DNA of 46,085 bases from a virus. The stretch is taken from the IMG/VR virus record IMGVR_UViG_3300025889_000012, positions 1-46,085 of that record. One strand, written 5' to 3'. Position 1 is the first letter of the stretch; every line of letters begins with the position of its first letter. Below the pieces are notes generated by a model. That model was not told the origin of the DNA and made no database searches. It saw nothing but the letters and a program-made list of their open reading frames with translations. This document shows positions 2,391 to 46,085 of this stretch, piece by piece. Position numbers and translations under genes: made by a program.

Positions 2391-2731
2391 GTCCGATATT
2401 TGATCCGAACAGCGACAAGTACCCCGACAGGATCTTCCGTTCGGGGCAATGGATGACACAGGAGCAGATTGAGCGAAGGAAAAAGCGGCAGTGCGAGCGG
2501 AGGTGCGCGAGGCGCGCAAACGACCCGGAGTATGCCGAGAAGGAGCGTGCCCGGAAGCGCGAGAGGCGCAGAAGGTCGAAGACTCTAAGGTCACTAGCCC
2601 TCTCGCTTGAACTCGGATTGCTAACGAGGAGGATTGCGGCCCTTTTTCAAATGGCTACTTCTGAATCCGCAACAAAGAACGAAAGAGAACTCGCTCTTTC
2701 TGCTCTGAGAAAGGAAGGCTACCAGATATGA
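2387..2731 (+). CDS. Small highly basic protein, unknown function
   Basis: A 114-residue protein starting at the GTG that overlaps the Prim-Pol stop by 4 bases (GTGA), the same coupling used by its neighbours; in-frame starts further upstream lie inside the Prim-Pol gene. Residues about 30-65 are dominated by Arg, Lys and Glu with repeated ERR/RKRE blocks and probably form a charged helix that could bind nucleic acid. The C-terminal part is a plain helical region. I recognise no family. Its place between Prim-Pol and the exonuclease suggests a replication accessory role. Confidence 0.6.
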   Translation: MSPIFDPNSDKYPDRIFRSGQWMTQEQIERRKKRQCERRCARRANDPEYAEKERARKRERRRRSKTLRSLALSLELGLLTRRIAALFQMATSESATKNERELALSALRKEGYQI

Positions 2732-2985
2732 AGCCACATCACCAGCAGTTCATCGACCATGCCGTTGACGCGATCAACTCCTTTCACCGGGATGAGCGAA
2801 AGGTTCAGGCAAAGAAGACCAGAACAACAGCTGTGGCAGCCCTTGATCGCCTCGATGCCGTCCTCGCCAAGAAGGATCAGATCGACATGTTCTTCGTTCC
2901 CGATGAGGGAAGAAAGTTCGGCAGAGCGATTCTAGTCGCAGAATACGGTGAAGAGACTGTCACAAGAGCACTAGGGCCAGCATGA
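2728..2985 (+). CDS. Hypothetical protein, 85 aa
   Basis: Small soluble, mostly helical protein beginning MKPHHQQFIDHAVDAINSFH. No recognisable domain or cysteine motif. It starts with an ATGA overlap of the preceding gene and ends with an ATGA overlap of the DnaQ-like gene, so it sits within the tightly coupled replication operon. Confidence 0.6.
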   Translation: MKPHHQQFIDHAVDAINSFHRDERKVQAKKTRTTAVAALDRLDAVLAKKDQIDMFFVPDEGRKFGRAILVAEYGEETVTRALGPA

Positions 2986-3572
2986 GAGAGTCCAGAACAC
3001 TGAGAGAATCACGGGAAAGGGTGGACAAGCGCCTGACCTTCGACATCGAGAACAGGCCCTTGAGCTACTGGTACGACGGTCAGAGCACCGCCGACGTGAC
3101 CGTCATCGCCTGGAAATGGGAAACCAACCACAAGGCCGACAGCGTGATGCAAGACCAGACTACCACCACCCGTGACATCCTAGAGCAGTTCAGGCCGGTC
3201 ATCGACCAGGCAGACGTTGTGGTGGGCCACAACATTCGCCAGCACGACCTGAGCTTGCTGAACGCCCAGTACATCATTCACGGGATGGCCCCGCTGAAGC
3301 CCATCCTGACCATCGACACACTGAGGGATCTACCCAAGTGGAAGGACGTTCCCCGCAGCCTGGAGTACCTGACCGACCTGTTGGGCTGTCCCCTCCAGAA
3401 GTTTCACATGACCCAGCATTCCTGGAGGACAGCGAACGCGCTCAGGGACGACTCTGCTTTGGCGTTGGCGAAGACACGGTGCGAGGTGGACGTGCTCGCA
3501 TCAGAATGGGTGTGGAAGGAACTGGAGAAGCGGGGACTGTTGACGAAGCAGCCGAGAATGTGGAAGCCGTGA
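2982..3572 (+). CDS. DnaQ-like (DEDD) 3'-5' exonuclease
   Basis: A 196-residue stand-alone exonuclease of the RNase H-fold DEDD superfamily. Exo I is FDIENRP (D21, E23), Exo II is VVVGHNIRQHDLSLL (H83-N84, D89), and Exo III is the C-terminal RCEVDVLASEW segment with its Asp near residue 167. This layout is typical of proofreading exonucleases fused to or partnering DNA polymerases, but no polymerase domain follows. It may proofread for the host polymerase or the Prim-Pol, or process DNA ends. The gene begins with an ATGA overlap and ends with a GTGA overlap. Confidence 0.8.
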   Translation: MRESRTLRESRERVDKRLTFDIENRPLSYWYDGQSTADVTVIAWKWETNHKADSVMQDQTTTTRDILEQFRPVIDQADVVVGHNIRQHDLSLLNAQYIIHGMAPLKPILTIDTLRDLPKWKDVPRSLEYLTDLLGCPLQKFHMTQHSWRTANALRDDSALALAKTRCEVDVLASEWVWKELEKRGLLTKQPRMWKP

Positions 3573-4030
3573 ACGGAGACATTTATACCCCATCATGCAG
3601 TTGCACGGGAGGTAAGTGGGGACTCGACAGGGATCCCAGTGGTTCCCTCAACTGGCGATGCCAGAAATGCCTCGCATGGGCGACTATTCAAGACTCCTTC
3701 ACGGCACCACAGGGCAGGCACCCGTCATCCCAGCGGTTCCACGACATCCTCGATGAGTGGAAGACCGTGCATGATAGGAAACAGGCCGACTACGGCAAGA
3801 CCGATGATCCGTTCGCAAACGTGAGGGCCAGCATTGACTTCGGTGTTCCAGGCTGGATCGGAGCTGTCATCAGGGCCAACGACAAGATGCGCCGGCTTCA
3901 AAAGGCCGCAACCGACTATCTGCAAACAGGCCAGATCACAATGGAAAACGAAAGCATTGTGGACTCGTTCGATGACCTGGGCGTGTACATGGCGATATCA
4001 AAGGTGCTGTTTGAGGAGGAGACGCCGTGA
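3569..4030 (+). CDS. Zinc ribbon fused to Nmad1/DUF1599-like domain
   Basis: A 153-residue protein; GTG at 3569 overlaps the exonuclease stop (GTGA), and the open frame extending upstream is only overlap with that gene. The N-terminal ~40 residues carry CSC and CQKC pairs, a probable zinc ribbon. From about residue 50 to the end it matches the phage nucleotide-modification-associated domain 1 (DUF1599) pattern: RKQADYGKTDDPFAN, a later R-x-x-DKMRRL helix, then ENESIVDSFDDLGVYMAIS. This domain resembles all-alpha NTP pyrophosphatases, so a role in nucleotide-pool control or base modification is likely but not proved. It is the last gene of the replication operon before the small RNA. Confidence 0.65.
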   Translation: MNGDIYTPSCSCTGGKWGLDRDPSGSLNWRCQKCLAWATIQDSFTAPQGRHPSSQRFHDILDEWKTVHDRKQADYGKTDDPFANVRASIDFGVPGWIGAVIRANDKMRRLQKAATDYLQTGQITMENESIVDSFDDLGVYMAISKVLFEEETP

Positions 4031-4052
4031 CCGACGAGCCGCGCTGGGGGAG

Positions 4053-4081
4053 GAGACAACATAGCCTTCATGTGATAGGAT
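4053..4081 (+). promoter_or_regulatory. Promoter of the predicted small RNA
   Basis: GAGACA (4053-4058, 4 of 6 to TTGACA), a 17-base spacer, then TAGGAT (4076-4081) preceded by TGA, an extended -10. The same GTGATAG core recurs at 4190 and 5504. Predicted transcription start is about 4088. Confidence 0.55.
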
Positions 4082-4087
4082 ACGATC

Positions 4088-4178
4088 AGTCCGCCGAGCT
4101 GGTAACTCGGCACCCTGACAGGCATGTGCCTCTCAGTGGTAGGTGGGGGAAGGGCCTCTTCGGAGGCCCTTCCCTTTT
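4088..4178 (+). ncRNA. Predicted ~91-nt phage small RNA of three hairpins
   Basis: A non-coding unit between the replication operon and int, framed by its own promoter and a strong intrinsic terminator. Hairpin 1 has a 6-bp stem, GCCGAG (4093-4098) with CTCGGC (4106-4111), and a 7-nt loop CTGGTAA. Hairpin 2 is ACC-CTGA-c-AGGC (4112-4123) pairing with GCCT-c-TCAG-t-GGT (4128-4140), loop ATGT. Hairpin 3 is the terminator. A long open frame crosses the region in the + direction but runs through all three hairpins, so I treat it as chance. A role in lysogeny or int control is inferred from position alone; no known RNA family is recognised. Confidence 0.5.
4147..4178 (+). terminator. Intrinsic terminator with C(UUCG)G tetraloop
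   Basis: A perfect 12-bp stem (GGGAAGGGCCTC at 4147-4158, complement at 4163-4174) closed by a TTCG tetraloop and followed by TTTT (4175-4178). It ends the small RNA and would also stop read-through from the replication operon. Confidence 0.85.
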
Positions 4179-4190
4179 CTGTGGCATCTG

Positions 4191-4199
4191 TGATAGGGT
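4191..4199 (+). promoter_or_regulatory. Candidate int promoter (extended -10)
   Basis: TGATAGGGT immediately after the terminator matches the extended -10 TGATAGGAT of the small RNA promoter. No good -35 is seen 16-18 bases upstream. It would give int a leader of about 125 nt. Confidence 0.4.
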
Positions 4200-4331
4200 G
4201 AAACAGACAGGAAGAACCCGTGAAGAGGGGGTGAGTGCGCTAAGCATGGTACTAGAGGAGATTGATCTTCTACTCGACCAGATCGATGCAACAATCCTTG
4301 CAATCACCTACCACTATCGAAAGGGAAGCGG

Positions 4332-5420
4332 ATGCGAAAACGACATACCACCCGCTATCCGGGAATCTATTACCGACTTACGGACGAGACGAACCCTGAT
4401 AGCCAGCGCCGCTACATCGTTTGGTGGTCAGACATCAACGGTCGCGGGCACACGCTCACCCTTCCTCTCGGCACTACTCTTGAGGGCGCACGGGCGAAGC
4501 AAGGAGAACTGAAGCATCGTCGCCAGAAGGGAGAGGCGCTCGTTCAGACCAGGATGAGCGTCGGGGAACTGCTGGACTTGTGGCTGACCACCCGATCAGA
4601 GTCGGTCAAGCCAAAGACGGTTGAGGACTACGAGTGGGCGATCCGGCATCTGAACAAGCATGTCGGACGGGCCAAGGTCACAGAGCTGACCGCCACCGAT
4701 GTCGCCCGCATGATCTCCTCGATGAAAGCGGACAACATGAAGACCTGGACGGTCAGGAAGATCCTGTCCCCCCTGTCAGCCGCGTACAGGCTGGCGATGC
4801 GGGAAGGCTGGGTGTCCGCCAGCCCGGTCGAGAAGCTGATGCCGCATGAACGACCGAAGGGCGATCAGAAGCAGATGCGGGTGCTGTCCCGTGAAGAGAT
4901 CCGCCTGCTGATCGAGAACGCCGGCAGCGAACGCTGGGAGGTGCTGTTCAGCGTGCTGGCGTACACGGGCCTGCGGATCAGCGAAGCCCTGGCGTTGACC
5001 TGGGATGACATCACCCCCGAGGCGATCATCGTCAGGGCATCGAAGACCCAGGCCGGGGTTCGCGAAGTGATGCTTCCCCATTCGCTGCATGTTCGGCTGG
5101 CCCGGTACATGCTTGCCAACAGAACACGAAGCCAGTATGTGTTCTCAACGAAGACCGGGGGGCCTGTGCCCAGGCGCTTGGCGCTGGTTGCTCTCCGGGC
5201 GGCTGAGAAGCGGGCAGGCCTGCCGGACTTCACGCTGCATGAGCTTCGTCACACGTACGCAAGCCTGCTGATCGCACAGGGGGAACCGCCAACGCTGATC
5301 GCCCGCCAGATGGGCCATTCGGATCCTGGGGTGACAATGGGAACCTATGCTCATCTGTTCGAGGGGCAGGAGAGCATCCAGGCCGCACGAAGCAGACTGG
5401 ACGCTGCAATAGGAATGTGA
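4332..5420 (+). CDS. int: Tyrosine-family phage integrase
   Basis: A 362-residue site-specific recombinase. The N-terminal ~65 residues form an arm-type DNA-binding domain (KRHTTRYPGIYYRL..., YIVWWSDINGRGHT). Residues about 75-165 are the SAM-like core-binding domain. The catalytic domain shows R215 in TGLRISEAL, H303 and R306 in LHELRHTYASL, H329 in MGHS and nucleophile Y339 in GTYAHLF. The upstream leader contains TCACCTACCA (4304-4313) and AAAGGGA before the ATG. The probable att site, a tRNA-Thr 3' half, lies at 5946-5992, beyond the repressor. Length and motifs are complete, so it should be active. No excisionase gene is recognised nearby. Confidence 0.95.
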   Translation: MRKRHTTRYPGIYYRLTDETNPDSQRRYIVWWSDINGRGHTLTLPLGTTLEGARAKQGELKHRRQKGEALVQTRMSVGELLDLWLTTRSESVKPKTVEDYEWAIRHLNKHVGRAKVTELTATDVARMISSMKADNMKTWTVRKILSPLSAAYRLAMREGWVSASPVEKLMPHERPKGDQKQMRVLSREEIRLLIENAGSERWEVLFSVLAYTGLRISEALALTWDDITPEAIIVRASKTQAGVREVMLPHSLHVRLARYMLANRTRSQYVFSTKTGGPVPRRLALVALRAAEKRAGLPDFTLHELRHTYASLLIAQGEPPTLIARQMGHSDPGVTMGTYAHLFEGQESIQAARSRLDAAIGM

Positions 5421-5442
5421 AGGGGGTGGGGCGGGATATGTT

Positions 5443-5459
5443 GAAACGCTCACAGTTTC
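5443..5459. promoter_or_regulatory. Candidate repressor operator O1
   Basis: Inverted repeat GAAAC-N7-GTTTC between int and the repressor gene. Its half-sites share GAAA/TTTC with the repeat at 5497-5515, though spacing differs by two bases. Confidence 0.45.
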
Positions 5460-5496
5460 CTGCTACGTTCAGGAAGTTGTATACATCCCCCCCGAA

Positions 5497-5515
5497 ATGA
5501 AAGTGATAGTTTCAT
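5497..5515. promoter_or_regulatory. Operator O2 overlapping the repressor promoter
   Basis: Perfect inverted repeat ATGAAA-GTGATAG-TTTCAT. Its centre contains the TGATAGTTT extended -10 (5504-5512), and its right arm reaches the first ATG of the repressor. A protein bound here would block the promoter, so the repressor is probably autoregulated. Transcription would start about 5519-5520, exactly at the second ATG, which predicts a leaderless mRNA. Confidence 0.55.
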
Positions 5516-5846
5516 GCTTATGACGGAAGAAGGAAAAAGGGCAAGGGAGATCGGGAAGCGCATCAAGTTGGCCCGAAAGGAGGCCGGCGGGATGACGCAG
5601 CGCGAACTCGCCAACGCTGTGGGAGTCACCGAAAGGTCTGTCGTGTCGTATGAGCGCGGACAGGTCGTCCCCTACCGCATGATGGACAAGATCGCTGAAG
5701 TGACCAGGAAGCAGTCAACCTGGCTGCTGTACGGCGACGAAGATGCTTCGCTCGACCCAGAGCTGTTCCTGGAGGAACTGAAGGCTCTGCGGCGCGAAGT
5801 TCTGTTGCTCCGCCGCGAGTTCGAGGAGCAACAGTTGGGCAAGTGA
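5514..5846 (+). CDS. XRE/Cro-CI family HTH repressor
   Basis: A 110-residue regulator, probably the lysogeny repressor. Residues about 10-70 are a Cro/CI HTH: IGKRIKLARKEAGGMTQREL, ANAVGVTERSVVSYERG (recognition helix) and the following helices ending WLLYGDE. The C-terminus from about 75 (LFLEELKALRREVLLLRREF) is a heptad-like coiled coil, probably for dimerisation. No protease-type C-terminal domain is present. Two ATGs are possible, 5514 and 5520. The second fits a leaderless transcript from the promoter within O2, and no SD precedes either. A terminator and attP follow. No divergent cro-like gene is visible. Confidence 0.8.
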   Translation: MLMTEEGKRAREIGKRIKLARKEAGGMTQRELANAVGVTERSVVSYERGQVVPYRMMDKIAEVTRKQSTWLLYGDEDASLDPELFLEELKALRREVLLLRREFEEQQLGK

Positions 5847-5898
5847 TGGGCAAGTCGGCCACCCCAGTGGTGAAGCCGATCTGAAGCAGAGACGAAAA

Positions 5899-5926
5899 AG
5901 GCCCGCTGCAATCCCGCAGCGGGCCT
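5899..5926. terminator. Bidirectional intrinsic terminator
   Basis: Perfect 11-bp stem AGGCCCGCTGC / GCAGCGGGCCT with a 6-base loop, an A5 run on its left (T5 on the minus strand) and a modest T-rich stretch on its right. It can end the repressor transcript rightward and the long late operon leftward. Confidence 0.8.
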
Positions 5927-5945
5927 ACGTTTCTGGGTGCCCCTT

Positions 5946-5992
5946 CCTCCATGGTAAGGAGGAGGCCCGGAGTTCGATTCTCCGAGAGGGCT
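5946..5992 (+). other. attP: attP core: 3' half of tRNA-Thr(GGU)
   Basis: This stretch reads as a tRNA from the anticodon arm to the discriminator base: anticodon stem CCTCC/GGAGG with loop ATGGTAA (anticodon GGT, Thr), 5-base variable loop, T-arm CGGAG-TTCGATT-CTCCG, acceptor 3' strand AGAGGGC and T at 5992. No D-arm or 5' acceptor strand precedes it, so it is not a working tRNA. Phages that integrate into tRNA genes carry such a 3' segment to restore the host gene. The identity block may extend slightly beyond these ends. Confidence 0.85.
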
Positions 5993-6096
5993 CTGATTTC
6001 TTCCCAAAGTAAAGTGACCCTTGGGCAAAAAACGGGCAAGCGGGCGGTACTGGGGGTAGGGGGAGCCGCCCCAGGTTTTGTGACCGCCCGCCTGAA

Positions 6097-6327
6097 TCAC
6101 CAACCGTTCCCCGGCAGAATGAAATGCACCCACAGCCAGGTCAGGAACAGCAGCACGACCAACTTGACCAAGGTGGAGCGGCGCATCAGCCTGTCCCGCA
6201 CAACCCGTGTCAGGGGCAGGGTGCCTTTCGCCTTCTCGGTGAACACGGCGAACAGCTCGTAGGCTAGGCCGACTGTCATCCAGGTGATCCAGAAGATCCA
6301 GGAGGCCAGGGCGAGGTCAGCGATCAC
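6097..6327 (-). CDS. Two-TM membrane protein, holin candidate
   Basis: A 76-residue protein, last gene of the late operon. GTG at 6327 overlaps the upstream stop (GTGA). It has two hydrophobic segments, residues about 3-27 (ADLALASWIFWITWMTVGLA...) and 56-72 (LVKLVVLLFLTWLWVHF), joined by a basic loop. A class II-like holin or accessory lysis protein is likely because it follows a peptidase endolysin and a membrane-anchored protein. Small two-TM proteins at this place are common in actinophages. The bidirectional terminator lies downstream. Confidence 0.65.
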   Translation of the reverse strand: MIADLALASWIFWITWMTVGLAYELFAVFTEKAKGTLPLTRVVRDRLMRRSTLVKLVVLLFLTWLWVHFILPGNGW

Positions 6328-6620
6328 GACGCCGCCCCTCCGCCCTTGCTCGCATAGCACTCGATCACGATGCGGTCAGTGACCTTCGGGGGAACAGTCC
6401 CCTTCGTGATGCCCTTCCTGTTCTCGTAGTAGTCGCACGTTGCCACGATCCCGTTGGAGATCGGACTGGACTCTGACGACGCCTTGATCCAGGATCGGTA
6501 CGGCACGACCTTCTTGGTGACGGTCACCGTGTTCGTCTGCGGGAACGCGAACAGGGCAACTCCCAGCACAACAGCGGTGACCCAACCGAACCCGGCCGCG
6601 ACGATCCCGAGTTCTCTCAC
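6324..6620 (-). CDS. Membrane-anchored extracytoplasmic protein in lysis cluster
   Basis: A 98-residue protein with an N-terminal hydrophobic helix (about 7-27, IVAAGFGWVTAVVLGVALFA) followed by a soluble domain with two cysteines (CDYYE and IECYAS), which could form a disulphide outside the membrane. It overlaps both neighbours by 4 bases (GTGA). It may be an accessory lysis protein; the family is not recognised. Confidence 0.6.
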   Translation of the reverse strand: MRELGIVAAGFGWVTAVVLGVALFAFPQTNTVTVTKKVVPYRSWIKASSESSPISNGIVATCDYYENRKGITKGTVPPKVTDRIVIECYASKGGGAAS

Positions 6621-7063
6621 GCCCAGCCCCTGCCCGAGACATGAATGTGGTACAGATGACTTCGGTCATTTGGGAAGTTCGAGAAGTACCGCCAGCCCTC
6701 CGAGGCCCGGTCGATGTTCCAGATCCGGTCACCGAGGATGATGTACTGGATGTTCAGGGCGCGCGCGTTCTGCTGAAGCAGCTTGGCGTACTTGCGGGCA
6801 ACCCAGTAATTCCAGCCCTTGTTGAAAAACCGGTTCTTGCGGCCAAGGTCATAGGCCAAGGCCATTCCAGGCTTGCCGTTACGGTCACCCCAGGAATGGT
6901 CACCGGGCTTTCTCGCATAGGTTCCAAGATCCGTGAACGACCTCTTCCGGCCCATGCTGTAGGCCAGCCACAGAGAATCATGCAACGAGTGAAACCCCTG
7001 GTTCGGCTCGACCAGGCTGTGATGCTTCTTCAGATACCGGGTGAGTAACTGCTTGTAGGTCAT
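6617..7063 (-). CDS. M15-like peptidase, probable endolysin
   Basis: A 148-residue single-domain enzyme resembling the M15/VanY-like peptidases (L-Ala-D-Glu or D,D-peptidases). The zinc-binding pattern is present: H56 in DHSWGD, D72 in MALAYDLG, and H139/H141 in LYHIHVSGRG. Aromatic residues around ILGDRIWNIDRASEGWRYF are typical of the substrate face in phage lysins. It likely cuts the peptidoglycan peptide stem at the end of infection. It has no signal peptide or wall-binding domain, so release should need a holin. It overlaps its neighbours by 4 bases. Confidence 0.72.
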   Translation of the reverse strand: MTYKQLLTRYLKKHHSLVEPNQGFHSLHDSLWLAYSMGRKRSFTDLGTYARKPGDHSWGDRNGKPGMALAYDLGRKNRFFNKGWNYWVARKYAKLLQQNARALNIQYIILGDRIWNIDRASEGWRYFSNFPNDRSHLYHIHVSGRGWA

Positions 7064-7491
7064 AGCTCCTCGCAGTCAATGACCTCCAGACGGGACTGGA
7101 TCAACGGGTCGTTGACGATCGCTTCGGTTTTCGCGACCAGGGCCGCGTACTGGGCACGCAAACCGGGGTTTACCGCCAACTCGGAGGCAGCGTGAATGTC
7201 TGCCAGTTGCGACTCCATCAGCACGCTGAGCGTGCGACGGAGCGCGTTCGCGCGATGGCACTCCGCCACCGTCTCCGCATGAACATTCTCTGCCACACGC
7301 GCCGCGCTGTTGTAGGTGGCGAACAGCGCCACCGACACAACGATGACGGCTATTGTCCGTACGACAGAAGCCCCAGAACCTTCAGGCCCCAGGCCAATAG
7401 CAGCGATCCAGCCACGCTTGCCTGCGCGATTTGACTTAGATCCACGCTGTTCAGCATTTGGTTCAGTCCGACGCTCAAAACGATCAACCAC
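7060..7491 (-). CDS. Single-TM protein with helical extracytoplasmic domain
   Basis: Up to 143 residues. A hydrophobic segment (VVRTIAVIVVSVALFATYNSA) is followed by about 75 helical residues with cysteines in ECHRANALRRTL and VIDCEEL. The GTG start at 7491 has AGGGAGG just upstream but would overlap the neighbouring gene by 142 bases out of frame. The only close alternative in-frame start (GTG 7338) falls inside the membrane helix. The C-terminal part is confidently coding; the N-terminal ~45 residues are not. Topology and place resemble a spanin- or holin-accessory protein. Confidence 0.5.
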   Translation of the reverse strand: MVDRFERRTEPNAEQRGSKSNRAGKRGWIAAIGLGPEGSGASVVRTIAVIVVSVALFATYNSAARVAENVHAETVAECHRANALRRTLSVLMESQLADIHAASELAVNPGLRAQYAALVAKTEAIVNDPLIQSRLEVIDCEEL

Positions 7492-7619
7492 CTCACCTCC
7501 CTCTTGATCTCCGCCCCAACCCGAGCCGTCGAAGCGTCAGCGAACGCCTCCACTTCTTTGGAGAGCGTTTTCAGCCCCTCGTACAGCTCTTGGTGGTTGA
7601 CCTGATCGTCCGACATCAC
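7350..7619 (-). CDS. Small membrane protein, holin-like
   Basis: An 89-residue protein: helical acidic N-terminus (MSDDQVNHQELYEGLKTLSK...), then two hydrophobic stretches (WLIVLSVGLNQMLNS and ASVAGSLLLAWGLKVLGLLS). Coiled coil followed by a hydrophobic hairpin is common in actinophage holin cassettes. GTG 7619 overlaps the upstream stop (GTGA), with an ATG immediately following. Confidence 0.6.
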   Translation of the reverse strand: MMSDDQVNHQELYEGLKTLSKEVEAFADASTARVGAEIKREVRWLIVLSVGLNQMLNSVDLSQIAQASVAGSLLLAWGLKVLGLLSYGQ

Positions 7620-8599
7620 ATTTTCCTGTCAATGTGTAGGTGTGGTGCCGCATGGTCTGCGGACACGGTTGCGATCTGCTGTCCGCGTCTGACCTTCGAT
7701 CCGACTGGTAGTCGGTCGTCAATGTGCCCCATCCAGTACATGCGACCGGACTTGCCACGGAAGTACAGGGCCTCGCCGCCCTGAGCGGAACCCCACCTCA
7801 CGATCTCCCCGTCCTCCGGTGCCCCGATCGGGGTGCCAGGGGCCAGCATGATGTCCTGGGCGGTCTTCTGGCCGTTGTTCCAGTCCAGCCCGTCCGTCAC
7901 ATGGCTGCCTTTCCAGGACGTGCCAGGCACATACACCTTGCCGTTGTATGTGGACTGAAGCTCTCTCTTCTTCGGGAGTTTCGGATTGACAGGCCCGTTA
8001 TCCCCGTCCGCGAGCTTCCCGGTAGGGAGCGCATCGAGAAGGCTGTCCCCCACAAGATCAGGAACGCCGGGACTGTCCTGCTTCGACCTCTTGAACAGGG
8101 ACGAGGAACGGGTGAAGGACTTGAACGGATTGTCAACGCCTGGACTTGGCTTCGCGGGAAGAGGCACAGCCCCGGCAACAGCGGCAACTGCGGTAGTCGC
8201 TGCCTTCCGTACTGTGCTTGGCCCAGACTCGCCAAGGATCTTTGCCGCATAGTCCGGGCGGGCGGTGCGCGACCCTGACACCCACTTCGACAGGTCACCA
8301 CGAATGTCACCAGAATACTTGTACGGGTTCCCTTGCCTGAGAGCGGCAACCACATCCTGATATCCGGACATGATCGTCTGGGCCGTATAGTCAATCCCCG
8401 TCCTGTAGTCCGGGAAGACCCGAACACCGACCGTGTTCATCGACGGGTATTGCGATCCCCTGGTGGTATTCAGCCAGTTGAATGACGCGGTGTTGTTGGT
8501 GTGTCCGCCCTCCCACCGCTGCCACGTCTGGAGGAAACGCCTGTTCTGCTTTGTGACTGGTGCCCCAAGGCGCTTGAGCACATCAATGTCCCAGGGCAC
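7616..8599 (-). CDS. Two-domain peptidoglycan protein: lysozyme-like plus M23-like
   Basis: A 327-residue protein. Residues about 20-120 resemble the transglycosylase/lysozyme-like domain of actinophage lysins (WQRWEGGH with candidate catalytic E30, FNWLNTT, GIDYTAQTI). A Pro/Ser-rich linker follows. Residues about 230-327 are an M23 (LytM) fold: TDGLDW, APGTPIGAPEDGEIV, GHI and APHLHID. The metal site is incomplete: the first His of the usual HxGxD is Thr (T235), with H233 two residues earlier, while H292, H320 and H322 remain. It follows the large ejection-type protein, so it may act from the virion at entry rather than at lysis. Confidence 0.7.
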   Translation of the reverse strand: MPWDIDVLKRLGAPVTKQNRRFLQTWQRWEGGHTNNTASFNWLNTTRGSQYPSMNTVGVRVFPDYRTGIDYTAQTIMSGYQDVVAALRQGNPYKYSGDIRGDLSKWVSGSRTARPDYAAKILGESGPSTVRKAATTAVAAVAGAVPLPAKPSPGVDNPFKSFTRSSSLFKRSKQDSPGVPDLVGDSLLDALPTGKLADGDNGPVNPKLPKKRELQSTYNGKVYVPGTSWKGSHVTDGLDWNNGQKTAQDIMLAPGTPIGAPEDGEIVRWGSAQGGEALYFRGKSGRMYWMGHIDDRLPVGSKVRRGQQIATVSADHAAPHLHIDRKM

Positions 8600-11500
8600 T
8601 CACCTCTCCTCGTCGTCAAGGCGCTTCACGGCAGCGATGATCTTGCGGGAACTTGCCCCAAGATCGTGCTCCAGGAACCATTCGGCCTGTTCGTCGGTAA
8701 CCGAAGCGATCTGGTCTGTCGTGGGGAGCTTCAGGTACGGGAATGCGATCCGGAGCGCCTCCACCCTGGCAACAGCCTTCTCCCTTGGGGTCAACTTGAC
8801 CCGTTTCCCGTAGATGTCACGCTTGTGTGTCTCCGCGCGAACGTCGGCATCCTGTATCCAGGTGACGATCTCCACGGCCCGGTCGATCTCGTCCTGGCTG
8901 GAAACGTCGTATGGCAACCCGTACTTGGACACGATGGCGCGAAGGTTCTTCTTCTCGGATTCCATCTTCTGCTTGCGCTTTGGGGACATCTCCATGTCTG
9001 TTGAGAACCCCAAGGCACGTCGCACCTGATCCGCAAAGCTCCCGCCACGCTTCAGCCTGCGATAGTCCGGCATCCCCGGCACAATCGACGCCAGAGCGTC
9101 AGCGCCACGATCGAAATAGTCGTTGAACGCCATGACACCAATGTCACGCAGGGCCGGGGAAAGGTTCGCGCCAGCGCCGTACGCTGCGTCAGCAAGAGCA
9201 GCCCCGTAGTCTCCACGGGCGAGATCAGCAACAGGAGCAAGGGCCTGTGGGACACTTTCCGCCGCAGGGCCAAACGGGTTCATCCACTCGATGTTCTGAC
9301 CGCCAATCCTGTTGCCGGGAATGGCGTTGATCTCCTCGCTGGAGATGTCCTGTCCCATCGTCAAGGCAGCGAGAAGACCGGCCCGCAGAGGATAGTTCGC
9401 CGCCCACTGGAACGGCCACTTGGCGGCACCGTACTTGAACGGCAGAATGAAGAAGTACCGCCCAGACCACGCCTTCACCTTTTCGGGCAAGGCGTCGAAG
9501 TCGATCATGTCCTCGCGAACCCACTGTGAGATGCTTCTGCGTGCGGCGACTGTGGCTGGATCCTTGGAGTCCAGGAACGCTCGCACAGCCTGTGCGTCGG
9601 ACACGTCAACGCCCATGCGCTCCGCGTACCCGTACCACATCGCACGCCGCCAAACCTCGTCGGCGGGAACCGAGAGCTTCTGTCCGGCCCAGTTCGAGAA
9701 CCTGCGGGAGAGCATCTCCCCCTTCACCGCTGCGCTTTTCTTCGGGTCACGCACGATCGGCCCCAGTTCACGAAGACCCATCGTTGCCTGAACCGCACCC
9801 GTTTCCACGTCAATGTCGCGGTTCAGATGGAACCCACGGCCCCTCTTCGAGTTGCGCGCGACATGCCGGAACGCAGACGGGTTCGTGACAGACATCAGGA
9901 TCATGTTCTGGATCCCGTTGCGAACCACATATCGAGCACCGAAGTCAGGCGTGTAGATCAACGCGGCACGGGAGGCGTTGTTCAGGATCCCGGCCACGTT
10001 CGCCAACAGCATTTCGTTGGACGCAATGTGGGCGTCCCCCAGCAGCGCCGTGGCAACCCTGTACGGGACAGCACGAACCGTGCCAGCGGCAATGTCCTCG
10101 TCTGCCAACCACGCCGGCCTTGGCTTGCTGGTGTCCCAGAACCAGTCCTGGACTGTTTCGGCAAGCGTCGTGGGAGTGAACTCGTCCGGATTGACCTCCG
10201 CATACCTCTCCGCGTACGTCGCCCCGCCCTCTTTCGCCGCCTTGCGCTGCTCTGCCGTTAGCCTTACGGCTTTCTGGTGGGGATCCCTGACAAGAACGGT
10301 TCCGCCTGGATAGTTCGGGATTGGATCACCGGGATTCAGCTCGTCGCCAACCTCCCACAGCCATTCCCGCGCCTTCACCGTGTACTCGTACCGAACACGG
10401 TTGCGGTAGTTCGAGGTGAGGGACGTTCTCGTCGCCTCCACTGCCTGCTTCATGTACCGACGCAAACGGTTCTTGTGGGCGTTCATCACCTCTTTCGGAA
10501 CACCCACAACGTCGTTCCCGCCGAGCTGCCTTGGAACCATCCTTCCAGACGTGTCGCTGGAGTCCAACTCCTTGTGGGGCACGAACGCCCTGGCCTCCGG
10601 AATCAAAACCTCGTCAGGATCCAGCAGTCCAGCCCTGATGTCATGCAAGACCTGAAGTTCGTCAAGAAGTGGCGCTGGATCGTCGGCAGATGAAACAGCA
10701 GCCGAGAGCTCCGCGATCTTGGCGTCCAACTTCTCTCGCGCCTTCCCGACCTGAGACACACGCGAGCCGTTCTCGTCCGGCTCGATCAGCCCCTGCTCCA
10801 CCCAGCGACGAACAACAGCGTCCCTTCTCCTGGACAGAACATCCAGCGGAATCCCCTTGTCGGCAGCCCACTTGCGGTAAATCTCCTCTGCCTTCAACGA
10901 CACCTGAACAGACGCCTCGACAGCCTGGGAGAACTCCACGCTGTCGATCTTCCTGTCCTTCAGCGCCTTCTCCAACAGATCAATGTTGTTCCTGAGCCTG
11001 ACAACATCCTTCCCGGTGTAGGTGAGATCACCGAGCTTCACGGGGCTTCCCCCTGTGGCCCCGTCAACCTGCGAGAGAATGTTCCTCAGATCAAGGATCT
11101 TCGTTTGGATCGCAGCCCTGAACGACATTGACTTCGGGGCCTCCAGAACAGCAAGAAGAGCCTGATCCAGATGCGGCCTGGAGCGGGGAATCAGGCCAAT
11201 ACGCACCTCGGAGATTCCCTGGTCGATGATCCTCTGCGCCTCGTTGGCCCATGCGTCGAGACGGTTGATCTCCTGCTTCCACGTCTTCCGCTGACGGTTC
11301 GCAGCACGGGTTGACGTTGAAAGACGCCCACCGAGAAGACTGGGGCCTTCCCCCTGGTTGAACCTGTCCAGTGTCTGTGAGATACGCTGTGTGACCTTCT
11401 GCACAGAACGGGCAACGGGAGTGCGTGCCCACGGTGGTGCGGCGACAGACTGGGAATACGCCCCCTTCCAGACCCTCTCCGGAATACCCCCACCAACACC

Positions 11501-38060: not shown

Positions 38061-38089
38061 TTGACTCTTTCCGGTAGCGGTGCTACCGT
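38061..38089 (+). promoter_or_regulatory. Early promoter of the small-gene cluster
   Basis: TTGACT (38061-38066), 17-base spacer, TACCGT (38084-38089), starting transcription near 38096. A perfect palindrome fills most of the spacer, which suggests that the promoter is under repressor control. Confidence 0.65.
38072..38088. promoter_or_regulatory. Operator palindrome inside the early promoter
   Basis: CGGTAGC-GGT-GCTACCG, two perfect 7-bp arms, located between the -35 and -10 hexamers. It differs from the GAAAC/TTTC sites near the XRE repressor, so another regulator may bind it. Confidence 0.55.
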
Positions 38090-38118
38090 TCTCTATGACA
38101 CCTACCACGGGAGGGAAC

Positions 38119-38439
38119 ATGTACTACGAATTGAATCAGGATAGCCCGGAACTATTGGAGGCTATGGAGGCCGCTACAGGTTTCCAGTGTGGCGTACTGA
38201 ACACGGGCGGGGGATGCACGGTTCTCGCAATCGACCTCTCGCAGGATGCCCGGTTTCTGGGGCGTCAAGTCTGGCTCACGCGGGAGGCCCAGTGGGTGCT
38301 CGGGTTCTATGACTTCTCAAAGGACGAGCAGGACGAGGGAGTTACCGTGTACCTCATCCCTCGGGATGCGGACGATGCGACGAGTGTCGCTGCTGAAGTT
38401 GCGGGAATTCTGACTCGCCTAGGAACCACCTACCACTAG
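38119..38439 (+). CDS. Early small protein, 106 aa, unknown
   Basis: Begins MYYELNQDSPELLEAMEAAT. ATG 38119 is chosen because CACCTACCA and GGGAGGG lie directly upstream and the promoter start is at about 38096. Mixed alpha/beta: GGGCTVLAIDLSQDARFLG, VWLTREAQWVLGFYDF, VTVYLIPRDADD, final helix. No family recognised. The CCACCTACCA box of the next gene lies in its last codons (TTYH-stop). Confidence 0.65.
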   Translation: MYYELNQDSPELLEAMEAATGFQCGVLNTGGGCTVLAIDLSQDARFLGRQVWLTREAQWVLGFYDFSKDEQDEGVTVYLIPRDADDATSVAAEVAGILTRLGTTYH

Positions 38440-38448
38440 GGAGGGAAC

Positions 38449-38889
38449 ATGCACGAGCCAATCGCATACACCTACAACGCCGATACGCATTGCCCATCAT
38501 GCGCCGAAGAGGCTTTTGGGCGTTCTGAGGATGGAGACATTGCCCCCGATGCAGGCGTCATCGCACCGTGGGATGAGTGCGACCCTGCGACCGGTATCTG
38601 CTGCGGCACTTGCGGATGCGAGATTGTCGAATCCCTGCCGTATACCGTGATCGAGAACACTCCCGGCTATCTGCCCGACGATCCCGACCCTGCCAGGTTC
38701 CATACGTTCCGGGAGGCCGTCCGCTACATGGTCGAGCAGGTGAGAGACTACCGGGATAGCCTGCGAGACTTCGGCGGAGACCCTGAAGGGTGGCTAGACC
38801 GGACTCTCGGGCAGGCATACATGCGAGACGCCGGCCGGAACCACGATTTAGGGCGTTCGTTCGAGGTTGTCGATACGCCGAACCTGTAG
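38449..38889 (+). CDS. Early zinc-binding protein, 146 aa
   Basis: A CPSC pair near residue 15 and a CCGTCGC cluster near residue 52 suggest one zinc site formed of four cysteines. The rest is soluble (FHTFREAVRYMVEQVRDYRD). GGGAGGG lies 4 bases upstream of ATG 38449. Function unknown; early small zinc proteins often bind host regulators. Confidence 0.65.
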   Translation: MHEPIAYTYNADTHCPSCAEEAFGRSEDGDIAPDAGVIAPWDECDPATGICCGTCGCEIVESLPYTVIENTPGYLPDDPDPARFHTFREAVRYMVEQVRDYRDSLRDFGGDPEGWLDRTLGQAYMRDAGRNHDLGRSFEVVDTPNL

Positions 38890-38967
38890 GACGCCCTGCG
38901 ACTCTTCCCGGCTAGTCCGGGGAGGGTCGGAGCGCATCCGCTCCAAACCACCTACCACGAGGGAGGA
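38882..38967 (+). promoter_or_regulatory. Leader cassette 1
   Basis: After the preceding stop: an 11-bp stem (38901-38911 with 38917-38927, two G-U pairs, loop CTAGT), a 6-bp hairpin GGAGCG-CATC-CGCTCC (38929-38944), AAA, the box CCACCTACCA (38948-38957) and SD GGGAGGA. The opening AACCTGTAGGACGCCCT recurs at 39258. Same architecture at 39532 and 40572. Confidence 0.65.
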
Positions 38968-38970
38968 ACC

Positions 38971-39258
38971 ATGCAATACGCGGACGGTACATCCCTAGAC
39001 TTTTCGCAACCCCGGGGACATACCTGTAAGGGTTACGCTCTGTGCCCAGATGGGAAGATTCGGGCTTTTCGGGGCGGAACGGCCGATACATTCTTCTCTG
39101 TCCCTGCGAGGGTTAGCGCGCAGGGAACGACGGTTTCCGGGTTTGTGACGGTAGAGACGAGGGATGGGTATTCCACGCCGACAGGGGATGATCCATTTAT
39201 CGTGCGATTCGTCCCCTACAAGTACGGGAAGAATCACAATCTCGTCTCAGGGTCGTAA
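38971..39258 (+). CDS. Early small protein, 95 aa, unknown
   Basis: Begins MQYADGTSLDFSQPRG; beta-rich with a basic middle (KGYALCPDGKIRAFRGGTA, TVSGFVTVETRDGYSTP, FIVRFVPYKYGKNHN). Start set by the cassette SD GGGAGGA and 3-base spacing. No motif recognised. Confidence 0.6.
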   Translation: MQYADGTSLDFSQPRGHTCKGYALCPDGKIRAFRGGTADTFFSVPARVSAQGTTVSGFVTVETRDGYSTPTGDDPFIVRFVPYKYGKNHNLVSGS

Positions 39259-39299
39259 CCTGTAGTACGCCCTACGACTCCACACCTACCAACGGAGGT
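39258..39299 (+). promoter_or_regulatory. Leader cassette 2 (shortened)
   Basis: Shares the opening ACCTGTAGTACGCCCT with cassette 1, then CACCTACCAA (39283-39292) and SD CGGAGGT. It lacks the GGAGC/GCTCC hairpin and has only a small GTAG/CTAC stem, so it looks like a partial copy. Confidence 0.5.
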
Positions 39300-39307
39300 A
39301 CACCATA

Positions 39308-39520
39308 ATGGGGCTTTATCTACTCAGCGGAGAATGGCATACGTCCGACGGCGTTAGATGGTTCTGCGGACTTCCCGTTTCCGCGCATTCGAGGGATGGC
39401 GCAGTCACCCGAGCGGAGGCTTACGGTTTGATAGTTGACACCGTTCGGGAGACTACTCGAATGCCGCGCATGGACTGGGCATCGGACGAGGCGCGAGAGC
39501 TCGCGGAAATGCTCTCCTAG
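39308..39520 (+). CDS. Early small protein, 70 aa, unknown
   Basis: Begins MGLYLLSGEWHTSDGVRWFC; a C-terminal helix (ASDEARELAEMLS) follows a basic turn. ATG 39308 after GGAGGT. No family recognised. Confidence 0.6.
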   Translation: MGLYLLSGEWHTSDGVRWFCGLPVSAHSRDGAVTRAEAYGLIVDTVRETTRMPRMDWASDEARELAEMLS

Positions 39521-39531
39521 AGGGGCTGTTG

Positions 39532-39590
39532 CGGATGCGGGCTTCGGCCCGCGTCCGGAGCATCCGCTCCAAACCACCTACCAAAGGAGG
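39532..39590 (+). promoter_or_regulatory. Leader cassette 3
   Basis: An 11-bp stem CGGATGCGGGC / GCCCGCGTCCG closed by a TTCG tetraloop (39532-39557), then GGAGC-ATCC-GCTCC (39557-39570), AAA, CCACCTACCA (39574-39583) and SD AAAGGAGG. The stem has a G-U pair at the seventh position from the loop, as in cassette 4. Confidence 0.7.
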
Positions 39591-39596
39591 TATCCA

Positions 39597-39851
39597 GTGC
39601 CCGAGTCAGCATTCAATCCTAGTGTTGGGGATCGAGTCTGCTATTCGGCGCGATTCCTGGCGAGTATCCAGGCATCCGAGTATGCCGACAGGGAAGGTAC
39701 AGTTGTCGCCATCCTGCAATCTCCCGGATCGTCCCCGGATCGTATCCGCGTGGAATGGGATGACGAGCCGGGGGAGCCTACGTCCGCTCTCGCAGTCAAT
39801 CTCGCGCGTCCGAAGTCTTACCGCGCGGTCGATCCCACGGCGGTCAAGTAA
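39597..39851 (+). CDS. Early small beta-barrel-like protein, 84 aa
   Basis: GTG 39597, set by AAAGGAGG 6 bases upstream. The segments VGDRVCYSARFLASIQA, REGTVVAILQSPG, RIRVEWDDEPGE and ALAVNLARP follow a small KOW/SH3-like barrel pattern seen in phage proteins that tune RNA or protein contacts. The exact role is unknown. The stop overlaps the next start (TAATG). Confidence 0.6.
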   Translation: MPESAFNPSVGDRVCYSARFLASIQASEYADREGTVVAILQSPGSSPDRIRVEWDDEPGEPTSALAVNLARPKSYRAVDPTAVK

Positions 39852-39946
39852 TGCTCGCCTACGACTGGATCGTGATCGCGGCCCTTGCCTGCTACGGGCT
39901 GGGGATCGCCCTGCTCCTGCTAGATATACGAGAGGATGAGGAGTAG
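39851..39946 (+). CDS. 31-aa single-TM mini-protein
   Basis: MLAYDWIVIAALACYGLG then a Leu-rich end of the helix and LDIREDEE. One membrane helix with an acidic tail. ATG overlaps the previous stop (TAATG) and a stop falls 3 bases before the next ATG, so it fits the operon exactly. Function unknown. Confidence 0.5.
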   Translation: MLAYDWIVIAALACYGLGIALLLLDIREDEE

Positions 39947-39949
39947 ACC

Positions 39950-40204
39950 ATGCCACGCTACATCGTAGAGCTAGAGACTGGCCGATTCGGGGATTGGCTC
40001 ATTCTGGAGGGGGAGTCAGCGGAGGCCGTGCTCGATTCCCTCATTCCCCGGACGCCGACAGGCAGGATCTCGAAAGTGAAGAGAGCCCCGGCCGTGCGCT
40101 GTATTTCCGAGACTATCCCTACACGGGAACGTCGTAGACTTGCCCAGGAGGCTGGCCTGCCGTTTCCCGTGCCACCGTGGAAGAAAGTGAGGCGGGGGAA
40201 GTGA
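39950..40204 (+). CDS. Early small protein, 84 aa, unknown
   Basis: Begins MPRYIVELETGRFGDWLILE with a short beta-alpha region, then basic C-terminus (ERRRLAQEAGLPFPVPPWKK). SD GAGGA upstream is inside the mini-protein gene. Coupled to the next gene by GTGA. Confidence 0.6.
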   Translation: MPRYIVELETGRFGDWLILEGESAEAVLDSLIPRTPTGRISKVKRAPAVRCISETIPTRERRRLAQEAGLPFPVPPWKKVRRGK

Positions 40205-40560
40205 CGACCGAGACATATACCGTGTTTGCCCTGGCGAACATGGCCGAATGTGCCGGCCCGGACTCTACAGAGTCGCCCGGTGCAAGGTTCCTAGAGTCTG
40301 TCGCGGATTCGACGCGAGAGCAGATCGAGTACGCGGGATCATGGGATGATGACATGGCCTCTGAGATCGCTGACTCATGCGTCCCCGTGTATACGCATGA
40401 CCTCTGGGCGACGTTCGTAGACCTGGCCGCATACCAGGAGGATCCATCCGAACTTGGCTATGACGCCTCAGATATGACCAAGGCAGCGCAGGTCTGTCTC
40501 TACATGATCGCGGAGAGGCTAGCGCGCAGGCTGGGAGACGAGGCTACAGACGAGGACTAG
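40201..40560 (+). CDS. Early small acidic protein, 119 aa
   Basis: GTG 40201 overlaps the preceding stop (GTGA). Helical and acidic: TVFALANMAECAGPDSTES, ESVADSTREQIEYAGSWDDD, DLWATFVDLAAYQEDPSEL, AAQVCLYMIAERLARRLGDE. No motif recognised. Could be an antirestriction-type or DNA-mimic protein by charge only; that is speculation. Confidence 0.6.
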   Translation: MTTETYTVFALANMAECAGPDSTESPGARFLESVADSTREQIEYAGSWDDDMASEIADSCVPVYTHDLWATFVDLAAYQEDPSELGYDASDMTKAAQVCLYMIAERLARRLGDEATDED

Positions 40561-40571
40561 GGCCGACGTTG

Positions 40572-40627
40572 CCGCTCCTGCCTTCGGGCAGGGGCGGGAG
40601 CGCCCGCTCCAAACCTACCAAGGAGGG
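40572..40627 (+). promoter_or_regulatory. Leader cassette 4
   Basis: An 11-bp stem CCGCTCCTGCC / GGCAGGGGCGG closed by a TTCG tetraloop (40572-40597), then GGAGC-GCCC-GCTCC (40597-40610), AAACCTACCA (40611-40620) and SD AGGAGGG. Very like cassette 3, including the G-U pair seventh from the loop. Confidence 0.7.
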
Positions 40628-44841: not shown

Positions 44842-45035
44842 CCAGAAAGCGTGACCTTCGTGACCCGATCAAGCTGGGCGAAACCTACCTGTCCCTGCGA
44901 GAGAAGAAGGTGGAGATCCAGACAGCCGTGCAGATGCCCGTCCAGGACTATGACGACGGCGGTGTCATGTCGTCGGACTGGCGGGATCATCATTCGCAGA
45001 CCCCGCAGACCACCAACCACCAGGACGCAGCATGA
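44838..45035 (+). CDS. Hypothetical protein, 65 aa
   Basis: GTG 44838: MTRKRDLRDPIKLGETYLSL, a charged middle, then a Gln/Thr/His-rich end (HHSQTPQTTNHQD). No family recognised. Ends with an ATGA overlap of the HNH gene. Confidence 0.6.
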   Translation: MTRKRDLRDPIKLGETYLSLREKKVEIQTAVQMPVQDYDDGGVMSSDWRDHHSQTPQTTNHQDAA

Positions 45036-45613: not shown

Positions 45614-45996
45614 TGACCCACAGTCGTCGCAAGGGGGCCGGCGGGGAACGCGAAGTCCGCGACGTGCTCCGCTCCCACAACATCGAGGCCCGCAGGGACG
45701 GCCGACTGGACGAAGACCTCGACCACGGCCTCGTCGGCTACCACCTGGAAGTCAAACGTCGTGAACGGTACGAGATCGATTCATGGCTGGCCCAGGCCGA
45801 ACGCGATGCCGGTGACCGTATACCTGTCGTGGTTTTCCGCAAGAGCAGGGAGCCGTGGCGGGTCATTCTCAGGCTCGATGACTGGCTGGAATCGTTGACT
45901 TCATCCGACCAGGATGGTAGTGTTCACGAATCCAATCAGAAGTCCACCTACCAGGAGGGGATGATCGATGGACGCAGCTACTCGGAGTTGGATTAG
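45613..45996 (+). CDS. Hjc-like Holliday-junction nuclease (PD-(D/E)XK)
   Basis: A 127-residue protein. ATG 45613 overlaps the HNH stop (TGATG). The pattern RRKGAGGEREVRDVL, LDEDLDHGLVGYHLEVKRRE (D and E-x-K), AERDAGDRIPVVVFRKSREP is the order of archaeal Hjc-type resolvases and related phage nucleases: E in the first helix, D, then E-x-K. It probably resolves branched replication intermediates. It ends 29 bases into the next gene across the circular join, and CCACCTACCA with the next SD lies inside its last codons. Confidence 0.7.
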   Translation: MTHSRRKGAGGEREVRDVLRSHNIEARRDGRLDEDLDHGLVGYHLEVKRRERYEIDSWLAQAERDAGDRIPVVVFRKSREPWRVILRLDDWLESLTSSDQDGSVHESNQKSTYQEGMIDGRSYSELD

Positions 45997-46085
45997 GGCC
46001 GAGATCAGCCGTCGCAGAGTCAGCGAGTTGCGACTTCACCGCAAGAACGTGGACAAGCGAGTCGGCGGCAAAGAGGAAGTCCCCC
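45959..46085. repeat. Terminal overlap, right copy (circular join)
   Basis: Second copy of the 127-base terminal overlap. It restores the context missing at the left end: the Shine-Dalgarno sequence GGAGGGG at 45954-45960 belongs to the gene that starts at position 10 (45968 in this copy). Confidence 0.9.

Follow-up and report, generated by a model that had tools for sequence, protein, structure and literature searches.

A shared box beside the start sites of early phage genes and a candidate antisense RNA that may pair with it

We analysed 46,085 nucleotides (nt) of viral DNA, positions 1 to 46,085 of IMG/VR record IMGVR_UViG_3300025889_000012 (hereafter the window, meaning this whole stretch), and find that eight of its genes carry a nine-letter box, CACCTACCA or a close variant, beside the Shine-Dalgarno sequence (SD) of their leaders. 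A single exact reverse complement of the box lies ahead of a strong terminator, and a small RNA predicted at that place pairs selectively, in silico, with the tagged leaders, three of which also hold stable hairpins. We tentatively favor the interpretation that a phage antisense RNA (about 4087–4179) pairs with the box and represses the tagged early genes, although this may well prove wrong. Still more tentatively, the arrangement might be a temperate phage's own RNA regulon, in which one antisense RNA silences the eight tagged genes together and leaves the repressor and late genes untouched.

Results

A nine-letter box beside the Shine-Dalgarno sequence

Exact copies of CACCTACCA number seven on the plus strand, against a mean of 0.095 in shuffled sequence, and one on the minus strand, against 0.045; with up to one mismatch there are 21 matches, against 6.85 ± 2.4 in shuffles. 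Together with the variant AACCTACCA the plus-strand copies make eight boxes, all of which end 10–18 nt before a start codon. The gap from box to GGAGG is 0–4 nt, except at the gene for a tyrosine integrase (int), where a weaker AAAGG stands farther away. Five exact copies precede small early genes, at 38099–38107 (11 nt before ATG 38119), 38427–38435 (13 nt before ATG 38449, within the last codons of the 38119 gene), 38949–38957 (13 nt before ATG 38971), 39283–39291 (16 nt before ATG 39308) and 39575–39583 (13 nt before GTG 39597), and the variant follows at 40612–40620 (10 nt before ATG 40631). The remaining two exact copies stand at 45945–45953, ahead of the first gene of the replication operon (start at 45969, equivalent to position 10 of the window), and at 4305–4313, 18 nt before the int ATG at 4332. 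The gene at 5514 for a helix-turn-helix (HTH) repressor-like protein is untagged, and a scan of the window found no exact box at the late minus-strand genes, the sole minus-strand copy being at 4145–4137. The distance from the SD is preserved even where a box falls inside the 3' end of the preceding reading frame, as three of them do. A box-like CACCAACCA also occurs at 45011–45019, 12 nt before a start at 45032.

Apart from the box, the flanks are unrelated among the leaders of 38119, 38449, 39308, int and gene 10, so the identity of the box is not explained by recent duplication. Judging by its excess of copies, its placement relative to SD and start, and these unrelated flanks, the box is under sequence-specific selection, and it likely acts at translation initiation. 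A preliminary description of this DNA had noted a shared box before early genes that was missing from the late operon, and both points hold, with seven exact plus-strand copies where about 0.1 would be expected and a distribution confined to early, replication and int leaders. Its suggestion of a regulator that targets the box at translation initiation likewise gains support. Its alternative suggestion, that the box pairs with its own SD, we reject, because a gap of 0–4 nt is too short for a useful loop and the predicted leader folds lack such pairing as a general feature.

A reverse copy of the box and a predicted small RNA

The exact reverse complement of the box, TGGTAGGTG, reads on the plus strand at 4137–4145, in the gap between the replication operon and int, and matches 8–12 nt of each tagged leader. 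In its plus-strand context (...CTCTCAGTGGTAGGTGGGGGAAGGGCCTCTTCGGAGGCCCTTCCCTTTTCT) this anti-box runs directly into the stem of a strong intrinsic terminator at 4145–4178, which has 12–14 bp, a C(UUCG)G loop and then TTTTCT. The preliminary description had missed this copy and its position. The terminator is by far the strongest plus-strand candidate found in the window; a consensus terminator scan misses it, probably since G-T pairs carry the stem on into the U-tract. Its C(UUCG)G loop and U-tract both lie on the plus strand, so the hairpin belongs to a plus-strand RNA. An exact reverse copy anywhere has a P of about 0.045 in shuffles, and one no more than about 12 bases from the only strong plus-strand terminator has a crude P of ~1e-5, before allowing for the number of noticeable stories. 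An exact reverse-complement copy in front of a strong terminator points to an RNA as the regulator.

The antisense small RNA that we predict would be ~93 nt long (about 4087–4179, plus strand), with a fold of −53.7 kcal/mol (z = −5.35) and no confident coding frame. In the predicted fold its 5' hairpin has the loop CUGGUAA at 4099–4105, which includes a second short anti-box motif, UGGUA. A candidate promoter for it, GAGACA-N17-TAGGAT with an extended TGTGA before the −10, lies at 4053–4081 on the same strand. The extended −10, TGTGATAGGAT at 4071–4081, is one of only two matches to TGTGATAGGRT in the window, the other lying just before int, and a Streptomyces phage leader has a close match to it, TGTGATAGTGT, after TTGACA-N17.

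Predicted pairing with the tagged leaders

When the small RNA is paired with leaders as a simple duplex, the eight tagged leaders come out on top of 24 plus-strand starts (−31.0 to −42.7 kcal/mol, lowest at 38449); the untagged start at 45032, with its box-like CACCAACCA, is close at −30.2 and a late minus-strand start at 31256 reaches −31.2. Once the cost of opening both RNAs is included, all eight tagged leaders lie between −4.3 and −9.3 kcal/mol and the other plus-strand starts tested (13 of 13) at +0.8 or above. The start of the repressor gene is not among the predicted targets in either calculation. Besides the box, the predicted duplex takes in the SD and AUG of several leaders. This extent agrees with the leader-like character of the small RNA's minus strand and suggests that an inverted leader copy gave rise to the RNA. 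Of what would mark a small phage RNA of the c4 type, complementary to ribosome-binding regions, the complementarity and the terminator are predicted in silico.

Leader hairpins and promoters

Three full cassettes, beginning at 38900, 39533 and 40573, run through hairpin 1, hairpin 2, box, SD and start. In the first, hairpin 1 occupies 38900–38928 (12 bp with G-U pairs) and hairpin 2 occupies 38929–38944 (GGAGCG-CATC-CGCTCC); in the second they lie at 39533–39556 and 39557–39570 (GGAGC-ATCC-GCTCC), and in the third at 40573–40596 and 40597–40610 (GGAGC-GCCC-GCTCC), all on the plus strand. In each of the three, hairpin 1 begins shortly after a stop codon; its sequence varies from cassette to cassette, while hairpin 2 (GGAGC...GCTCC) and the AAACC that follows it are nearly invariant. 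Plus-strand fold energies of the full cassettes are −31.9, −30.9 and −29.9 kcal/mol (z = −4.2, −6.2 and −3.8), the minus strand folding more weakly, and in stability the 58 nt preceding their boxes rank in the top 0.4% of the window. G-U pairs are so placed that the stems run unbroken on the plus strand and are interrupted on the minus strand. The other five of the eight boxed leaders (38119, 38449, 39308, int and gene 10) lack an unusually stable fold.

These fold energies and strand-specific G-U pairs agree with the earlier proposal of a repeated early leader cassette whose structure is conserved on the RNA strand, including the C(UUCG)G loops, with one U-G pair each, in hairpin 1 of the second and third cassettes. 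The 'shortened copy' reported at 39258 does retain the box and some leader sequence, but it has no significant hairpin (−3.1 kcal/mol, z = −0.6). The cassette hairpins had also been said to lack a U-tract and so not to be simple terminators; indeed none of the three shows the stem followed by a U-tract of an intrinsic terminator, and two terminator scans report none of them. No known RNA family or ribozyme, hammerhead included, is found in the window at Rfam gathering thresholds, and a covariance-model search of the early region at E ≤ 5 returned no hammerhead and only chance-level hits.

A likely early promoter, TTGACT-N17-TACCGT, read from the sequence at 38061–38089, precedes the 38119 gene, and an inverted repeat at 38072–38088 overlaps its −10. 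Another likely promoter, TTGACT-N17-TAGTGT at 45895–45923, precedes the replication operon; both are on the plus strand. With such promoters ahead of the 38119 and gene 10 leaders, transcripts of their own probably begin there. Promoter spacers or −10 regions have TGGTAG(GT) or words like ACCTACC near a downstream box, both at the replication promoter of the window (45910–45953) and in a second phage described below (G005, locus L133, minus strand, near 13639–13598 and 12754–12691), and could form an operator.

The box in other phages

The box recurs beside the SDs of separate phages. In an unrelated uncultured phage, IMGVR_UViG_3300041403_000630 (G005, loci L132 and L133), one strand bears the exact box six times: five leaders contain it, and the sixth copy, at 4594, falls in coding-like sequence. 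One further leader has the variant CGCCTACCA. Most of these leaders read TTGACA or TTGCCA, N16–17, TANNAT, a short GC-rich hairpin, box, SD and ATG, and in the leader at 23656 the box is farther upstream of the start. A tblastx comparison of G005 with the window gave scattered short pieces of low identity, which we read as composition noise. Rhodococcus phage ChewyVIII has two copies, both ahead of SD and ATG.

Close relatives of the phage itself in IMG/VR are only 100% identical fragments, and searches with int and the primase found no relative. A wide distribution of the exact cassette was considered and rejected, as the 15 matches to a genome-wide pattern all appear to have arisen by chance in coding-like sequence from unrelated bacteria, and the viral contigs with the cassette are all identical fragments of the same phage. 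Single-copy matches to ACCACCTACCA-N-GGAGG in viral contigs lie mostly in coding-like sequence. Two loci of one and the same sequence (L003 and L008) have box and SD in a long cis inverted repeat, TCCCTGGTAGGTGG...CCACCTACCAGGGA, just before the start, possibly a riboswitch-like or operator element. IMGVR 3300036862_000007 (L109) has one protein gene in common with the window (73%) and different leaders; in successive ones, near 430, 930, 1450, 2350 and 2940, long inverted repeats run up to SDs that resemble AAAGGAGG, which gives an unrelated version of this layout.

The phage and its genes

The record has a 126-base terminal repeat (1–126 = 45960–46085), within which the gene at 10 begins, and is therefore probably a complete or circularly permuted genome. 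It encodes a primase/AAA protein (651–2390), the tyrosine integrase (4332–5420) and the HTH repressor-like protein (5514–5846). The large terminase (T4-type) is far from those of all annotated phages, and the region from 37.5 to 42 kb has no DNA match to phage records. An Ocr-like antirestriction protein (40201–40560) is 37–46% identical to Streptomyces and Rhodococcus phage proteins, which indicates an actinobacterial host, and resemblances to actinophages in early genes and leaders make the phage look actinobacterial. The stretch 5945–5992, downstream of int and the repressor gene, resembles the 3' half of a tRNA-Thr(GGT) gene and is a probable attP; this half had no match among 396 genomes from the phylum of one actinobacterial metagenome-assembled genome. 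An open frame at 4246–4512, with a plausible helical N-terminus, overlaps the int start by 180 nt and holds the int box within its codons (ITYHYRKG).

Discussion

Proposed mechanism and alternatives

In the model that we tentatively favor, the box would be an mRNA address tag directly 5' of the SD of early, replication and int genes, and a trans-acting small RNA would carry the reverse complement of the tag just ahead of its own terminator. A duplex over the box, extending in part to the SD and AUG, would keep the 30S subunit from binding, so that the tagged genes would be turned down together and the HTH repressor gene and the late genes spared. The intercistronic hairpins would probably insulate or process the mRNA, keep box and SD unpaired, and isolate each start site. 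We infer that this RNA is expressed and acts as a repressor, and also when it would act: a tagged set of early, replication and int genes with the repressor gene untagged would fit either the maintenance of lysogeny or a late shut-off of early functions. If true, a phage regulon would be under the control of a single seed, in a seemingly actinobacterial phage.

Several findings count against this model. The separation of tagged from other starts in the accessibility-aware calculation follows partly from the anti-box lying inside the seed, and targets and seed came from the same search. Most of the seed is base-paired in the RNA's own predicted fold and would cost 6–11 kcal/mol to open, and the −35 of the candidate promoter is weak. 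The 27-kb G005 fragment contains no exact anti-box, and no diverged copy of the small RNA was found in relatives, a seed-pattern search included. As the relatives are all identical and the G005 hairpins are unrelated in sequence, there is no alignment of homologs in which to look for compensatory changes. Lastly, the stretch that would encode the RNA resembles a leader when read on its minus strand, which we take up below.

It is quite possible that the box is a start-associated initiation element with no antisense RNA at all, either as an unstructured C/A-rich stretch or as the site of a phage or host protein that opens the SD or recruits the ribosome, in which case the copy at 4137 would be coincidental or without effect. 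The same box beside the SD in the unrelated G005, and the two copies ahead of SDs in ChewyVIII, would be expected of such an element; C/A-rich stretches also precede SDs in other actinophage leaders and the start-associated sequence of cluster K phages, and several of the predicted leader folds leave most of the box unpaired. But identity over nine letters amid unrelated flanks requires a sequence-specific reader, for which we found no protein candidate, and this explanation does not account for an exact reverse copy abutting the strongest plus-strand terminator.

We consider it improbable that the phage repressor binds the box as a DNA operator or stoperator, in the manner of the 13-bp asymmetric sites of cluster A mycobacteriophages. 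Such sites would be short, asymmetric, intergenic and in a single orientation relative to transcription, as the box is. The stoperator reading is strengthened by the first promoter of G005, where TGGTAGGT lies over the spacer and −10 as an inverted pair with the downstream box, and the window promoter at 45918 overlaps TGGTAG. It is weakened by strict spacing: every copy in the window stands at a near-fixed distance from the SD, which a DNA site would not require, and the three copies inside the 3' end of an upstream frame hold that distance too. The plus-strand G-U pairs of the adjoining hairpins also favor a function in RNA.

If the reverse copy at 4145–4137 were simply the tagged leader of a minus-strand gene, no small RNA would be needed; we think this very unlikely. 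On that strand the stretch does read hairpin, CACCTACCA, GAGAGG and ATG (4125) at the usual spacing, and the codon score of the 69-codon frame that follows is intermediate and not clearly that of a wrong frame. But the frame overlaps a good plus-strand gene (3569–4030) by ~110 nt, the SD is weaker than in other leaders, the UUCG loop and U-tract are on the plus strand only, and no minus-strand promoter is seen at this stretch. That the hairpins are the point of the cassette, as intercistronic processing or mRNA-stability elements with the box as part of a processed 5' end, is scarcely credible: hairpin 1 does follow a stop codon closely in each full cassette, and other actinophage early operons repeat RNA elements in their leaders, but five of the eight boxed leaders have no unusual fold and the Rfam search at gathering thresholds found no known ribozyme or RNA family in the window.

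Comparison with known systems

Type II hammerhead ribozymes flank single phage genes, and similar prophage arrangements are known (PMC3088659). Like that layout, the window has a structured RNA element in several early leaders; unlike it, the window yields no self-cleaving motif with a defined core at Rfam gathering thresholds. Streptomyces phage VieEnRose (ON526983, 41077–50193; L128) has eight type II hammerheads (RF02276, 41–55 bits) in early-gene leaders, at 1481 to 9077 of that locus, which suggests that its early transcript is cut into gene-length pieces. In many early leaders of Streptomyces phage Zemlya (NC_021339, 1304–6424; L130) we observe a repeated minihelix like a tRNA T-arm and acceptor (one example being GGGTG...CCTGGGTTCGAG..CCCAGGCACCC). 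It may be a site for RNase P or for tRNA-like processing, and it has no Rfam match at gathering thresholds.

In cluster A phages (L5, TipsytheTRex) the repressor binds stoperators, asymmetric 13-bp DNA sites that number more than 20, lie in promoters and short intergenic spaces and are oriented with transcription (PMC9283540). They have no reported fixed distance from the SD and no reported antisense RNA, whereas the window element is 9 bp long and tied to the SD. The c4 antisense RNA of phages P1 and P7 pairs around the ribosome-binding site and silences phage genes (Citron and Schuster 1990, reviewed in PMC12197685). The RNA proposed here would resemble c4 in being phage-encoded and, by prediction, antisense to ribosome-binding regions. 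As far as those accounts describe it, c4 targets one operon (ant), whereas the proposed RNA would hit eight separate leaders through one tag; we claim no relation in sequence.

By sequence and layout, the closest known kind appears to be the start-associated sequence (SAS) of cluster K mycobacteriophages with its extended form (ESAS), although the window element does not appear to be a member. The SAS is a short asymmetric repeat beside the SD of 11–19 nonstructural genes, after larger intergenic gaps and in one orientation (PMC3203893, PMC11373665). Roughly half of the sites are preceded by the ESAS, an imperfect inverted repeat of 17 bp that is said not to support mRNA hairpins (PMC3203893, PMC11373665); a putative promoter lies within it (PMC11373665). 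Like the SAS, the window element is asymmetric, near starts and in one orientation, with all eight plus-strand copies 10–18 nt before a start, and like the ESAS the G005 leaders include a promoter. The SAS, GGGATAGGAGCCC, includes the SD, whereas the window box lies 5' of it; the window leaders read CACCTACCA-N0-4-GGAGG and do not match GGGATAGGAGCCC within two mismatches. This difference in sequence and in position relative to the SD sets the window box outside the SAS. The upstream structures differ too: where ESAS repeats are reported to form no mRNA hairpins, the window stems pair and favor the RNA strand. Hairpins occur in three of eight window leaders, as one of 10–12 bp and a second short one, with differing sequences. 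A single reverse SAS has been described in four genomes (PMC3203893), and we considered the one in Anaya (59870) as a parallel antisense RNA; we rejected it, as it lies downstream of a terminator-like hairpin and not upstream of one. The role of the SAS has been in question since 2011, and its discoverers asked whether its partner is RNA or protein, and of host or phage (PMC3203893). The box described here would be a second start-associated sequence, unrelated to that of cluster K and recurring in another phage, and it comes with a concrete candidate for an RNA partner.

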